64,000 nt of DNA from Bacteroidales bacterium (GTDB lineage Bacteria > Bacteroidota > Bacteroidia > Bacteroidales > Bacteroidaceae): contig SUXN01000009.1 of assembly GCA_015060965.1 (NCBI GenBank), positions 1-64,000 of the forward strand. Direction: 5' to 3'. The notes beneath the pieces are model-generated. The model was not told the DNA's origin and searched no databases. It saw only the letters and a program-made list of their open reading frames with translations. The position numbers were made by a program, and so were the translations under genes. Of the stretch, positions 24,401-29,823 are shown one piece after another. The first letter of the stretch is position 1, and every line of letters begins with the position of its first letter.

Positions 24401-25137
24401 TCCGCGAGAAGGGTACCAACGGCGAGCGTGAGATGGCTTATGCAATGCACCTCGCAGGCTTTGACGTGAAGGATGTTACAATGACCGACCTTATCAGCGG
24501 CCGCGAGACACTCGACGAGGTGAACTTCATCGTATTCTGCGGTGGATTCTCCAACTCTGACGTTCTCGGTTCAGCCAAGGGTTGGGCAGGTGGCTTCCTC
24601 TTCAATCCAAAGGCAAAGGCTGCGCTTGACCGTTTCTACCAGCGTGAGGATACTCTCTCACTCGGTATATGCAACGGTTGCCAGCTGATGATGGAGCTTA
24701 ACCTTATCAATCCTGAGTATGCCGAGCGCGGACGTATGCTCCACAACAACTCGCACAAGTTCGAGTCTTCGTTCGTAGGCGTGAATATACCGCAGAACAA
24801 CAGCGTTCTCTTCGGTTCTCTATCAAACAGCCGTCTGGGTGTTTGGGTTGCCCACGGTGAGGGTAAGTTCTCTCTTCCATACGAGGTCGAGAAGTACAAC
24901 ATAGTTGCACAGTATGCATACGAGGGCTATCCTGCGAACCCCAACGGTTCGGACTATAATGTAGCAGCTCTTGCAAGCGCTGACGGCCGTCACGTGGCAA
25001 TGATGCCTCACCCAGAGCGTGCTATCTTCCCATGGCAGTGTGCTACTTATCCGGCAGACCACATCGCTGATGATGTTACTCCATGGATTGAGATATTCCG
25101 CAATGCTTACAATTGGGTAAATGAAAAGATAAAATGA
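21436..25137 (+). CDS. purL: Phosphoribosylformylglycinamidine synthase, single-chain
   Basis: The 1233-aa large-type PurL converts FGAR, glutamine and ATP to FGAM in purine synthesis. It joins the synthase halves (HSEHCRHKIF near 155; ETHNFPTTVEPFNGASTGTGGEIRD near 250) to a C-terminal class-I glutamine amidotransferase domain. The nucleophile is Cys1079 (GICNGCQ), and the partner residues are His1192 and Glu1194 in HPERAIFPW. The length fits the proteobacterial and Bacteroidota large type, so no separate purQ/purS is needed. Two promoter-like boxes and a hairpin leader precede it, and a long imperfect hairpin follows. Confidence 0.95.
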   Translation: MIYFFSTPAGSVIATQANGTLTTADIEKLCWLYGEATPVESEVMGGFFIGPRREMITPWSTNAVEITQNMGLTGIARIEEYFAVKDENAEYDPMLQRMYRGLDQNIFTVDIQPKPIEFIEDLDSYNEQEGLALSKEEIDYLHRVEGELGRKLTDSEVFGFAQINSEHCRHKIFGGTFIIDGEEMPSSLFAMIKRTTNENRNSIISAYKDNVAFAQGPVVEQFAPADHSIPDYFVIKDIETVISLKAETHNFPTTVEPFNGASTGTGGEIRDRMGGGKGSWPIAGTAVYMTSYPRTYNDRKWEEVLPVRKWLYQTPEQILTKASNGASDFGNKFGQPLICGSVLTFEHKENDEVYGYDKVIMLAGGVGYGTRRDCLKGAPEKGNKVIVMGGDNYRIGLGGGSVSSVDTGRYSSGIELNAVQRANAEMQKRAYNVVRALCEDDTNPVVSIHDHGSAGHVNCLSELVEECGGLINMANLPVGDSTLSAKEIIANESQERMGLLIKEDAIEYVRKVAERERAPMYVVGETTGDARFAFEQADGKRPFDLSVSQMFGSSPKTYMVDKTVERHYKDAEYDEVNIEEYLTDVLRLEAVACKDWLTNKVDRSVTGKIARQQCQGEIQLPLSDCGVVTLDYRGRKGIATSIGHAPQAGLADPAKGSVLAVSEALTNIALAPLANGIKSISLSANWMWPCRSQEGEDARLYRGVEALSDFCCALKINVPTGKDSLSMTQKYPDGTKVISPGTVIVSAGGEVSDVRKVVSPVMVNEPKSAFYHIDFSFDHLRLGGSAFAQTRNCIGDDVPTVANPEYFAEAFDAVQQLVKEGLVMAGHDVSAGGLITTLLEMCFANTTGGMEIDLNNVVEKDIVKLLFAENPALVIQVADKDKCRMQQILDEAGICFVKIGTPCEKRHIAVAKDKRTRLFDIEHYRDVWFDSSYLMDLKQSFNGCASERLKNYKNQPLRFRLPARFNGMLSSYGMSADRREKSGVRAAIIREKGTNGEREMAYAMHLAGFDVKDVTMTDLISGRETLDEVNFIVFCGGFSNSDVLGSAKGWAGGFLFNPKAKAALDRFYQREDTLSLGICNGCQLMMELNLINPEYAERGRMLHNNSHKFESSFVGVNIPQNNSVLFGSLSNSRLGVWVAHGEGKFSLPYEVEKYNIVAQYAYEGYPANPNGSDYNVAALASADGRHVAMMPHPERAIFPWQCATYPADHIADDVTPWIEIFRNAYNWVNEKIK

Positions 25138-25146
25138 TAAAGTAAA

Positions 25147-25220
25147 TTAAGGGCTATTAAGGGGGATTAAGGAGCATTAATGTGCTTTAGTCCTCCTTAA
25201 TTCTCTTTATTGGCCTTTAA
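25147..25220. repeat. 74-base imperfect palindrome after purL, same repeat family as the 26.4-27.0 kb element
   Basis: The arms 25147-25183 and 25184-25220 pair along nearly their whole length, with about three mismatches and several positions that would be G-U in RNA. The sequence is built from ATTAAGG-type decamers like those bordering the four-helix-bundle gene 1.2 kb downstream. It can act as the purL terminator, but its likeness to those borders suggests a solo repeat or miniature element. Confidence 0.7.
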
Positions 25221-25236
25221 ATTTTAATCTATTACA

Positions 25237-25782
25237 ATGGCGACATCACTCTTTAAACTGTTCACGACATTCTTTCGCATAGGACTCTTTACCTTTGGCG
25301 GAGGCTATGCTATGATTCCGCTCATCGAGCATGATGTGGTGGAGAAGAACGGATGGCTCAGGAAGGATGAGTTTCTTGACCTGTTGGCAGTGGCGCAGTC
25401 GGCTCCAGGCGTCTTTGCCGTAAATATGGCTGTGTTCGTCGGCTATAAGTTGCGTGGCAAACGTGGAGCATTGGCGGCTTCTTTCGGTTGTGTGCTGCCT
25501 TCGGTTGTAATAATACTGTTGATAGCTCTTTTCTTCCGCCGCTTCCGTCATATTGAGGTGGTGAACAACATCTTCATGGGTATAAGGCCGGTTGTGGTGG
25601 CACTGATAGCAGTACCGGTGTTCAATGTTGCGAAGAGTGCAAGATTGGGGTGGAGTACCGTGTGGATTCCTGTCGTGGCAGCCTTCCTGATAGTCGCTTT
25701 GGGAGTATCTCCGATATATGTGATAATAGTTGCCGGTGTTGCAGGTTATGTTTGGGGTAGAATGGGGAGGGACAAGGCATGA
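25237..25782 (+). CDS. chrA: Chromate transporter, N-terminal-type half
   Basis: The 181-aa membrane protein is a single CHR domain. The family signature FTFGGGYAMIPLIEHDVV is at about 18-35, and AQSAPGVFAVNMAVFVGYKLRG near 52-73. Short CHR proteins work as pairs of oppositely oriented halves. The second half follows with a 4-base ATGA overlap, so the pair is translationally coupled. The family exports chromate or related oxyanions, but physiological substrates in gut Bacteroidales are not established. Confidence 0.87.
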   Translation: MATSLFKLFTTFFRIGLFTFGGGYAMIPLIEHDVVEKNGWLRKDEFLDLLAVAQSAPGVFAVNMAVFVGYKLRGKRGALAASFGCVLPSVVIILLIALFFRRFRHIEVVNNIFMGIRPVVVALIAVPVFNVAKSARLGWSTVWIPVVAAFLIVALGVSPIYVIIVAGVAGYVWGRMGRDKA

Positions 25783-26369
25783 TGATTTTTATTGAACTCT
25801 TTTATACGTTCCTCAAGATAGGTCTTTTCTCCTTCGGTGGGGGGTATGGGATGCTGTCCGTTATACAGGGTGAGGTTGTTGCCCGTCACGGGTGGCTCAC
25901 TGCAGCCGAGTTTACCGATATTGTGGCAATAAGCCAGATGACACCGGGTCCCATAGGTATAAACTCCGCAACTTATGTAGGATACACGGCGGTGTTGAAT
26001 GCAACGGGCTCGGAGCTGTTTGCCGTTGTTGGTTCTCTTGTGGCTTCATTTGCCGTGATGCTCCCGTCGATTGTGCTGATGCTTATTGTAAGCCGTTACT
26101 TTATGAAATACAGCAAGCACCCCTCTGTTGAGGCTGTGTTCAAATGCCTGCGTCCTGCGGTGGTGGGATTGATTGCTTCGGCAGCGCTGTTGCTGATGAC
26201 AGAAGAGAACTTCGGCTCGCCTGTAGGGTCGCCTTTGCAGTTCTGGGTGAGTGTAGCACTGTTTGTCGCGGCTTTTGTAGCTATGAAGTTCTTCAAGGTA
26301 AGCCCTATTCTCATTCTTCTCCTTGCCGGTGTTTTCGGTGGGGTTTTCTATGGGGTTGCAGGAGAGTGA
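25779..26369 (+). CDS. Chromate transporter, second half
   Basis: The 196-aa CHR-domain protein has the parallel signature FSFGGGYGMLSVIQGEVV and ISQMTPGPIGINSATYVGY. It overlaps the preceding half by 4 bases (ATGA), with an alternative in-frame ATG one codon on. Six or so hydrophobic segments are visible. Together the halves form the equivalent of one full-length ChrA. The stop codon directly abuts the tandem GGTTATTAAG decamers. Confidence 0.87.
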   Translation: MMIFIELFYTFLKIGLFSFGGGYGMLSVIQGEVVARHGWLTAAEFTDIVAISQMTPGPIGINSATYVGYTAVLNATGSELFAVVGSLVASFAVMLPSIVLMLIVSRYFMKYSKHPSVEAVFKCLRPAVVGLIASAALLLMTEENFGSPVGSPLQFWVSVALFVAAFVAMKFFKVSPILILLLAGVFGGVFYGVAGE

Positions 26370-26370
26370 G

Positions 26371-27039
26371 GGTTATCAAAGGTTATTAAGGGTTATTAAG
26401 GGTAATTAATGTTGCTGATTATTTGCTCTTTTGCGGAACTCAACTCTTTCTCTGGTGAGTTTCTCTCGGAATCCGCCTTGGTGCAAGAAACGTTCTCCAA
26501 CAGCCTGGAGGTATTTGTATAACAGGTAATCTGCTTGGTATATAAGAATTATTGCAAGATTGGCTGTTGTTTCAGCATTACGGGTTTTAATTAACTTCAT
26601 CCAGAATTCTGTTTCATTATGCTCACGCCCTAATTCCTGAGCGCGTTTCATCTGCTTAGAACCTTTATCCCAGCGTACGAGGTTATGCGTGCGAATATAA
26701 TCCTCGTAATCTATAAGGAGTTCCTGTAGACTGCTTTTGGCAACATTGAACAACTTGATTTCTGTTTCTGTGGATGTGGCGCCGGCTGCATATCCTTCAA
26801 CAATGTTCTGTTTACCGCTACGTGCTGCTTGTACCATCTGGTCTATGGTGCGGTCTCCCTTGCTGAAATAGTTCCTGGTAAAATGGTATGTGATGTCATA
26901 GATGGTTTCTGCTTTGCGGTAGCATAGCAGTTCACGGTAGTTGCTTCTGTTTGGAATTAGATTGGGCATATATAACGGTGTCAGACAGTTAAAGTAGAGG
27001 GACATTAATAACCTTTAATATCCCTTAATTCTCTTAATG
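26371..27039. repeat. Four-helix-bundle gene bounded by inverted decamer repeats (IVS-like element)
   Basis: The left border 26371-26411 is four tandem decamers (GGTTATCAAA, GGTTATTAAG twice, GGTAATTAAT). The right border 27003-27039, read on the opposite strand, is made of the same ATTAAGGG/TTATTAA units. The terminal 29 bases of the two arms match at 24 positions as an inverted repeat. The enclosed gene is of the 23S rRNA intervening-sequence protein type. Intervening sequences in 23S genes likewise place such a gene in the loop of a terminal stem, so this looks like a free-standing relative. Confidence 0.6.
26406..26969 (-). CDS. Four-helix-bundle protein (23S rRNA IVP / S23 family)
   Basis: The protein is 187 aa from the ATG at 26969. 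An upstream in-frame ATG at 27005 would add 12 residues but runs into the border repeat. The core DQMVQAARSGKQNIVEGYAAGATSTETEIKLFNVAKSSLQELLIDYEDYI is typical of the IVP four-helix-bundle family, and the later NAETTANLAIILIYQADYLLYKYLQAV gives the suffix helix seen in longer members. The family includes the proteins encoded in 23S intervening sequences and relatives of Avd, the accessory subunit of diversity-generating retroelements. No reverse transcriptase is nearby. The role is unknown; nucleic-acid binding is plausible from its basic surface. Confidence 0.8.
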   Translation of the reverse strand: MPNLIPNRSNYRELLCYRKAETIYDITYHFTRNYFSKGDRTIDQMVQAARSGKQNIVEGYAAGATSTETEIKLFNVAKSSLQELLIDYEDYIRTHNLVRWDKGSKQMKRAQELGREHNETEFWMKLIKTRNAETTANLAIILIYQADYLLYKYLQAVGERFLHQGGFREKLTRERVEFRKRANNQQH

Positions 27040-27042
27040 TTT

Positions 27043-29823
27043 TTATCCCAGTTTTTCTTTAAGGAACTTGCCTGTGTATGAGGCTGCGCATGCCGCAACC
27101 TCCTCCGGCGTTCCGGCAACTACGAGTCTTCCACCTTCCTCGCCACCTTCCGGTCCAAGGTCAATTACATAGTCGGCACATTTTATAACGTCCATGTTGT
27201 GCTCGATGATGACAAGCGAGTGCCCGCGGGCAAGCAGGCGCTCAAAGGACTTGAGCAACTTCTTGATATCATGGAAGTGCAGGCCTGTCGTGGGCTCGTC
27301 GAAGATGAACATGGTGGGGCGGTCGGTCTGCTGGCTCAGATAGTAGGCGAGCTTTACACGCTGGTTCTCACCGCCTGAGAGTGTCGACGATGATTGTCCC
27401 ATCTTTATATATGCGAGTCCTACATCCTGTAAAGGCTGAAGGTTCTCTGCAATGCGTTTCTGCCCATGTTCCTGGAAGAAGTTTATTGCATCGCCTATGG
27501 TCATCTCCAGTATGTCGTAGATGTTCTTCCCGTGGAACTTCACCTCAAGGACCTCGTTCTTGAAACGTTTGCCGTGGCAGGCCTCACATTCGAGCTTGAG
27601 GTCGGCCATGAACTGCATCGATACGGTTATGGTTCCCTCGCCCTTACATTCATCGCAACGGCCTCCGTCAGAGTTGAAAGAGAAATGTCCTGCCCCGAAT
27701 CCCAACTGCTTTGCCAACGGTTGTTGTGCAAAGAGATGACGTATCTCGTCATATACCTTTAGGTATGTGACGGGGTTTGAACGCGATGACTTGCCAATGG
27801 GGTTCTGGTCAATGAACTCTACACCGCAAAGCTGTCTCAGGGCACCACCAACCTCCTCGCACTGCCCGGGGGCCTCGCAGGTATTGCCGAAGTGTCGCAT
27901 GAGTGAGCGGTAAAGGATGTTGCGTACAAGGGTCGATTTGCCCGAGCCGCTCACTCCGCTGACCACGGTAAAGAGATTAAGAGGTATATTGACGTCAATG
28001 CCCTGCAGGTTGTTTTCGCGTGCTCCCTTTATTGTTATCCAGTTGTTCGATGTGCGGCGGTGCTTGGGTACTTCAATGGTCTCTTCGCCCAATAGATACT
28101 TGACCGTATAGCTGTTGCTGCCTTTTTCAAGGTCGCTCATGTTGCCACGGTAAACGATGTTGCCGCCATATGAGCCTGCCTTCGGACCTACATCTATTAT
28201 ATAGTCGGCTGCACGTATGATCTCTTCGTCGTGTTCAACTACAACAACAGTGTTGCCAAGGTCACGCAAGCGGTAAAGGACGCTTATCAGACGGTCCGTG
28301 TCACGGCTGTGGAGTCCGATGCTGGGCTCGTCAAGGATGTATAGCGAGCCTACAAGGGCACTTCCCAATGATGTCACAAGGTTTATTCTCTGGCTCTCTC
28401 CACCTGACAATGTGTTGCTCAAACGGTTGAGTGTCAGGTAACCGAGGCCGACGTCGAGCAGGCAGTCGATGCGGCTGCGGATCTCGGTGAGAATACGCTT
28501 TGCCACAGCTGCATCGTGCTCGTCAAGCGTTAGGTTGTCGAAGAACTCTTTAAGGCGTGTTATAGGCATCTCAATGAGCTCTATGATGCTCGTACCGCCA
28601 ACCTTTACATAGCTTGCCTCTTTCTTGAGGCGTGTGCCGTGGCATGTGGGGCAGATGGGCTTGCCACGGTAGCGCGCGAGCATCACCCGGTACTGTATCT
28701 TGTACTGGTTGGCCTTGACCATGTTGAAGAAGTTGTCGATGCAGATGCTCTCGCCGTACTCCTCAATCCATGGGCCTTTGTGCCATAGGTAATCCTTCTG
28801 CTCCTGGGTTAGGTTGTAGTATGGCTCAAAAATAGGGAAGTCGTCTTTGGGCGCGCGGCGGCAGAACTCATTCTTCCATTCTCCCATCTTTTCGCCGCGC
28901 CAGCAGAATACCGCACCGTCATATACACTCAACAGCTTGTTGGGTATCACAAGGTCCTCGTCAATGCCTACTATGCGGCCGAAGCCTTCGCAGTCGGGGC
29001 ATGCACCGATGGGTGAGTTGAAAGAGAACATCTGTTCCGATGGTTCCTCGAACTCAATGCCGTCGGCCTCAAAACGGATGCAGAAACTGTGTGGTACCTC
29101 CTCGTCCATGAACTGTAACAAGCAGGTGCCGTTGCCCTCGTAGAAGGCGGTCTCGGCAGAGTCGAGCAGGCGGCTGACTGTCTCATTGCTGTCGCTCACC
29201 GTCAAACGGTCTACCAGCAATGCGGGTTTCTCACCTTTTTTCGGGGTGTACTCCTCAATGCGTATTATCTCTTTATCGAGTACTATGCGTGTGAAACCCT
29301 GTTGCAGGTATATCGATAGTTGCTCCTCGAGTGTGCGTCCCTTGCGTTTTGGAATAGGGGCGAGCAACAGGAAACGTGTCCCCTCTGGGCGGCTCTTCAT
29401 GCACTCCACAAGGTCCTCGGGGTTGTCTTTCTTTACCAGCTTGCCACTTATAGGGGAGTAGGTCTTTCCTATGCGTGCATAAAGCAGTTTTAGATATTCG
29501 TAAATCTCGGTAGATGTTCCTACTGTGGAACGCGGGTTGCGGTTGTTCACCTTCTGCTCAATGGCAATGGCGGGCGGTATACCTTTGATGAAGTCGCACT
29601 CGGGCTTGTTCATCTGTCCGAGGAACTGGCGTGCGTATGACGAAAGGGACTCCACATATCTGCGCTGTCCTTCGGCATAAAGGGTGTCGAAGGCAAGTGA
29701 TGACTTACCCGAGCCCGAGAGCCCTGTGACGACAACGAGTTTGCCGCGTGGAATTTCAACGTCGACATTTTTCAGGTTGTTTACCCTTGCTCCTTTTATT
29801 ATGATATTCTTGCTTTCGCCCAT
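27043..29823 (-). CDS. uvrA: Excinuclease ABC subunit A
   Basis: The 926-aa nucleotide-excision-repair ATPase has two ABC modules. Walker A motifs are GLSGSGKS (34-41) and GVSGSGKST near 630, with signature motifs LSGGESQRI and LSGGENQRV. Zinc-binding pairs are visible as CPDC...CPTC in the first half and CDEC...CEAC in the second. The extra N-proximal CxxC pair found in the E. coli protein is reduced to a single Cys ([11 protein letters not shown]). It recognises damaged DNA with UvrB. The start ATG lies 28 bases downstream of a weak -7 box (TAAATTCG, minus strand, 29852-29859). Confidence 0.95.

Follow-up and report, generated by a model that had tools for sequence, protein, structure and literature searches.

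Among the systems closest to the one considered here, REPIN-RAYT pairs a single gene, which encodes the Y1 transposase RAYT, with numerous scattered inverted repeats whose sequence matches that on either side of the gene. Another is the intervening sequence (IVS) of the 23S rRNA, which in Coxiella burnetii has a 28-bp terminal stem and carries tandem GACAGAT heptamers before the S23 open reading frame, two or three according to strain, as described in passages of one report (PMC4990558). Structures of S23/IVP proteins have been available since 2006 and are filed under function unknown. Heptamers, for their part, were described as the commonest class among longer simple repeats in the majority of genomes surveyed in 2007 and were ascribed to polymerase slippage, according to passages of a paper on TAACTGA repeats, which in its judgement may have spread by horizontal transfer, with 'no mechanism evident' (PMC4679880). 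The titles, abstracts and passages of the open-licence literature that were searched yielded no prior link of S23/IVP proteins to these repeats.

The locus described here lies in a window of 64,000 nucleotides, the whole stretch of DNA that was analysed, from the genome of a Bacteroidales bacterium. It occupies positions 26370..27042 and fills all the space from the stop codon of chrA (26369) to that of uvrA (27043), and its gene sits between protein genes and not, like a 23S IVS, inside an rRNA gene. To the left is an array of about four units of the degenerate 10-mer (G/A)GGTTATTAA on the plus strand (26370..26409; by tandem-repeat analysis period 10 and 4.1 copies at 26369-26409), with two exact GGTTATTAAGGGTWATTAA matches; to the right, inverted-repeat and tandem-repeat analysis places an array of about 3.5 units on the minus strand (27005..27038, period 10, 3.5 copies), inverted relative to the left one. 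The original prediction of decamer borders inverted to each other is borne out by arms of 28 nt at 26385-26412 and 27002-27029, which are 89% complementary with 589 nt between them, and needs amending in that each border is itself an array of a variable word, which makes the pair more than a simple inverted repeat. The enclosed gene is on the minus strand at 26406..26969 (187 aa). Its open reading frame extends to 27005, giving 199 aa from the first ATG, and the second ATG (26969) is probably the start because most relatives begin there. The gene is present in one copy in this genome, the assembly of which is 94.9% complete, and a 19-base array pattern, allowing up to three mismatches, has 16 matches genome-wide against one for the reversed control. 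One gene-less (solo) array lies nearby, between purL and the first chrA gene, with a forward half at 25146..25182 (plus strand) and an inverted half, read from the sequence, at 25186..25220 (minus strand). An Rfam scan of 24900-27300 gave nothing above gathering score, and three sub-threshold matches there were taken as chance.

The protein matches TIGR02436 at 33.5 bits against a cut-off of 24, which upholds the predicted membership of the IVP family; what that prediction had missed is the TIGR04258 suffix at residues 144-192 (60.1 bits, cut-off 40). It falls below the gathering score of the Pfam IVP model PF05635 (29.7 versus 33.8), and in Pfam and NCBIfam the gene belongs only to S23/IVP families, with no RAYT (Y1) transposase match. 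The sole gene of the element thus encodes a four-helix bundle, and its predicted structure (md77559fa4273, pLDDT 84.2) superposes on Xcc0516 of the S23 family (2gsc_D) with Z 16.3 and an rmsd of 1.3 over 112 residues, on BT_0352 of the same family (2rld_B) with Z 13.9, and on the DGR Avd structures 8ub7_B and 4dwl_D with Z 12.3 and 11.8; as Z under about 13 may reflect merely a common arrangement of helical bundles, only the 2gsc and 2rld matches count as strong. Foldseek comparison with solved S23 members gave probability 1.00 and E 0.07-0.25. The 2gsc and 2rld structures have chains up to E and are presumably pentamers. A profile search of PDB sequences with A1 gave no match. The protein of one related locus (L230) had no match in a phage collection, and phage carriage was dropped on that ground. 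No catalytic domain was found in the protein and no known partner gene accompanies it, which counts against a mobile element.

Between two close relatives (G016 and G023, loci L015/L016), the gene differs by three synonymous and no non-synonymous codons, and the upstream flank has 120 gap columns in an alignment of 310, which suggests that the gene is constrained while the arrays turn over. Another pair (L010/L014) has four synonymous and six non-synonymous changes, so this constraint is not equally plain everywhere. Two further observations concern the distribution of the family: one genus (G206, G279, G336, G427) has TIGR04258 matches within open frames 576-590 aa long, possibly fusions or chance long frames, and one genome of 5.1 Mb (G282) holds 29 TIGR02436 matches.

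The association of gene and array extends well beyond the window. Within the genus, a 9/10-mer array lies within 350 bp of the gene at 18 of 20 suffix-gene loci (the misses being L002 and L008; rows L020/L023 of the broken G022 gene are left out), and the repeat word differs between lineages. A set of 80 suffix loci, kept from a longer candidate list in one scan of named genomes, spans Bacteroidales, Verrucomicrobia, Kiritimatiellae, Planctomycetes, Chlorobi, Nitrospirae and Mariprofundaceae by record titles. Here 9/10-mer arrays were found at autocorrelation of at least 0.68 in 38 of the 80, against 11 of 748 control gene flanks from the same loci, and at 0.6 in 60 of the 80 against 23 of 748. 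Around suffix-less genes, 56 of 152 flanks have arrays at 0.7 or above, compared with 2 of 109 windows taken as controls. No array is present by this measure at 20 of the 80 suffix loci (below 0.6) and at 21 of 77 suffix-less loci, which counts against a class of elements made of gene and arrays.

The motif also follows the protein: similarity of the flank words rises with protein identity (Mantel rho 0.30, reached in 0 of 500 permutations; distal control flanks 0.07) over 86 of 92 loci, with L100, L109, L111, L129, L176 and the mis-set L018 dropped for in-frame stops. Where a genome has several copies, the upstream and downstream arrays of the same copy rank first as a pair in 14 of 21 cases. 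Plasmid copies, cyanobacterial and other, have arrays in 13 of the 18 records used of 23 (H5, H13, H15, H18 and H21 were left out). These are mostly heptamers, which we take to resemble the STRRs of Nostoc, and in several they are visibly inverted across the two sides, for example GGGAGTA/TACTCCC and GGTGACA/TGTCACC; at some loci the arrays are direct rather than inverted.

Unit length goes with protein class. Suffix-less genes encode about 120 aa and sit in 7/8-mer arrays, while the suffix proteins of about 185 aa sit in 9/10-mer arrays. At a threshold of 0.7, arrays occur at 41 of 77 suffix-less loci, with best lags of 7 (24 flanks), 14 (14), 8 (14), 12 (3) and 9 (1), and at 36 of 86 suffix loci, with lags of 9 (36 flanks) and 10 (14), so that at this strict threshold the two classes barely overlap; the Fisher test comparing the two classes was run without the three flanks of lag 12. 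The suffix-less genes were sampled in the genus and the order, 38 being found in scans (one of them, L275, dropped) and 40 hand-picked down the order list, skipping extra copies of some genomes; L252, L253 and L259 are not among the 77. On the tree of suffix proteins, 9 versus 10 requires eight changes, fewer than in any of 300 shuffles (mean 14.6, all at 10 or more). The corresponding 7 versus 8 on the suffix-less tree requires 11 changes, with 69 of 300 shuffles as low, and is unsupported as a clade marker. In degenerate arrays the conserved run averages 4-5 columns, and the varying columns number about 2.8, 3.8, 4.5 and 5.0 for units of 7, 8, 9 and 10, which, with a wide spread, points to a core of nearly constant size and a spacer that grows.

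Copies of the border repeat exist both with and without the gene, and gene-less ones are common. In the genus, where the suffix gene is over cut-off in 18 of 44 genomes, these dispersed arrays track the gene. TAAGG arrays are present in 16 of 19 suffix-gene genomes (one with a broken gene) against 5 of 25 gene-free ones (p 2.7e-5), with up to 115 matches in one genome (G012) and three control matches over all 44. Among 30 genomes, all with the suffix gene, TAAGGNCTT arrays occur in all 13 whose gene bears the TAAGGNCTT word and in 3 of 17 others (p 5e-6). Of these three exceptions, L122 bears a word almost identical to it; of the 13, four have counts of 1-3, which may reflect no more than the arrays flanking the gene. 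For TAAAC arrays the link is weaker than hoped, at 5 of 8 short-gene genomes versus 4 of 36 others. Several facts count against the reading as a mobile element. Five gene-free genomes of the genus have TAAGG arrays; G012, G031 and G038 are rich in AACG arrays, and of the genes looked at only that of G028 bears AACG, so that these heptamers are not a clean cognate test. Arrays lacking a cognate gene could be explained by incomplete metagenome assemblies or gene loss. Solo arrays at ddl, apt and the purL-chrA stretch occupy the same place in more than one species, which argues that many arrays are old and not recently moved; in the purL-chrA stretch, ahead of chrA, six more of the 17 relatives also have array motifs, gene-free genomes included. 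The window's genome has 14 AACGNNN heptamer-array matches, yet no suffix-less S23/IVP gene was found in it. Decamer arrays and two or more families of heptamer arrays occur side by side in G012 (L210-L220), together with other dispersed repeats; several of its contigs end in or near arrays, so these probably break the assembly.

Insertion is seen where occupied and empty sites are compared. We located chrA in 37 of the 44 genus genomes and took 30 loci, with strand set by tblastn, and 17 gaps were readable through to uvrA. Gene and arrays are present in four of the 17 (G000, the window's genome, G011, G016 and G023) and neither in 13, the element-free gaps measuring 48-117 bp (L042, L054, L063, L064, L066, L069) or holding other content; in G002 the gene is about 2.4 kb beyond chrA. 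The repeat is therefore not fixed at this place in all relatives, and the idea of a free-standing mobile element, put forward from the window's sequence, gains support from this polymorphism and from a plasmid relative with a 98%-identical empty site. The chrA-uvrA element has inverted arrays, and no empty site was close enough for a comparison of target duplications. The plasmid element, from Trichormus variabilis, encodes a suffix-less S23/IVP protein (WP_011316862.1) and is absent from 98%-identical plasmids of Nostoc linckia NIES-25 and N. carneum, and the 5-bp GTAAT flanks it twice and is found once in the empty site. This is the only site with a clean target duplication: a second pair (L332/L345) has 3 bp and another (L346/L345) about 6 bp with a mismatch, and at L330, L333, L334 and L336 the junctions are replaced, with no clear duplication, which counts against the mobile-element reading. 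The Nostoc C052 site (L341) holds short remnants of an array.

Some of these sites lie in CRISPR loci. In Picosynechococcus PCC 7003 an element sits between cas10 and cmr3, and PCC 7002 is without it. Anabaena sp. 90 has an element at a cas6-cas4 site that in Dolichospermum UHCC 0315A is occupied by another kind of small repeat insertion (L342 600-960), and L342 was accordingly rejected as a clean empty site. Four-helix-bundle genes annotated in CRISPR-Cas operons of cyanobacterial plasmids (L334 versus L343; L331; L338) likewise resemble element insertions. Passages of PMC3936711 list as a CRISPR-associated function those IVP genes found together with cas4 and cas6 or flanked by cmr2 and cmr3; insertion would be a simpler reading of them.

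We consider it rather probable that the locus belongs to a widespread class of small selfish elements in which an S23/IVP gene is combined with the arrays that its protein reads. In such an element a single S23/IVP gene would lie between degenerate tandem arrays, often inverted like transposon ends, and the protein would read 7-8 nt units in its form of about 120 aa and 9-10 nt units in its suffix-bearing form of about 185 aa. A ring-shaped oligomer may bind one unit per subunit, for which TRAP-like wrapping, a ring protein on consecutive units, offers an analogy. The bound ring would bring the two arrays together in synapsis and promote movement of the DNA between them, with cutting supplied by a host or other nuclease. 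Gene-less arrays would be non-autonomous copies moved in trans, or remains, and the 23S rRNA IVSs copies that landed in rRNA. Near-identical DNA with and without the unit, together with the layout found in several phyla and the unit length by class, means that many unexplained short repeats in bacteria may stem from one overlooked class of mobile element. We put at about even chances the broader proposal that the 7-10 nt short tandem repeats of many bacteria (cyanobacterial STRRs, TAACTGA, GGGAATC and others) are largely S23/IVP arrays and their non-autonomous offspring, with the ring setting the unit length at one unit per subunit, and rRNA IVSs and CRISPR-locus IVP genes as landing places. 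The window's locus is an ordinary member; it is the class itself that is new.

A resident RNA- or DNA-binding regulator could have the dispersed arrays as its regulon sites in untranslated regions, as has been proposed for the TAACTGA heptamers in Beggiatoaceae, and this would suit a single gene copy with many arrays, the arrays kept beside the ddl and apt start codons in G000 and G006, and a conserved core with a variable spacer. Such a regulator would hardly be so patchy (18 of 44 genus genomes over cut-off) or have such unrelated neighbours, nor would one expect multiple copies in a genome, every one with an array of its own, or insertion inside plasmid operons and occupied and empty sites, and we regard this account as unlikely. 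That the arrays are host microsatellites, in or near which the gene merely lands, is distinctly less probable still: their units vary, array length differs between close relatives, and slippage was proposed for heptamers by Mrazek in 2007 (as told in passages of PMC4679880), but it does not account for a unit length that differs by protein class, a motif that follows the gene, or empty sites that lack the array.

The other option raised from the window's sequence is an RNA-processed element, whose arrays would pair in the transcript and let RNase III excise the gene, while its DNA would not move by itself. In the predicted fold, pairing of the two arrays gives the minus-strand transcript a terminal stem (z -2.48 relative to 20 shuffles), which would be compatible with RNase III cleavage, and excision by this enzyme is shown for the Coxiella IVS (PMC4990558); insertion polymorphism, gene-less arrays and unit length by class would all be left unexplained, some loci have direct arrays, and we think this account very improbable. 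Least credible of all is a retroelement in which an Avd-like protein works with a reverse transcriptase copying the array RNA. The fold shared with DGR Avd (Z 11.8 and 12.3) is its support, and PF00078 was found neither in the window's genome, at 94.9% completeness, nor in the gene-bearing G008, G011, G016 and G037, which rules out reverse-transcriptase partnership as a requirement.

With a mobile S23/IVP element as the preferred reading, the proteins gain a candidate ligand and the repeats a candidate cause, and the link between them is directly testable by binding assays. MITEs and insertion sequences share with it inverted ends, intergenic insertion and, in the plasmid relative, one 5-bp target duplication, whereas here the ends are arrays of variable length and there is no known transposase. 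DGR Avd has the same fold (4dwl_D), but no reverse transcriptase was found in the window's genome. REPIN-RAYT likewise combines one gene with dispersed inverted repeats like its flanks; here, however, a four-helix bundle without a known catalytic site takes the place of the transposase, and tandem arrays that of the repeats. The 23S IVS of Coxiella burnetii, as passages of PMC4990558 describe it, has the S23/IVP gene, stem-capable terminal inverted repeats and tandem heptamers by its open reading frame; the window's element differs in lying between protein genes and in having 10-mer arrays and dispersed gene-less ones. Finally, the cyanobacterial STRRs, TAACTGA (PMC4679880) and the Xanthomonas GGGAATC repeats (PMC4692102) likewise form short, degenerate tandem arrays between genes, frequently paired in inverted orientation in Xanthomonas; no S23/IVP gene is named in the passages of these papers that were searched, whereas the arrays described here make up a single unit with the gene.
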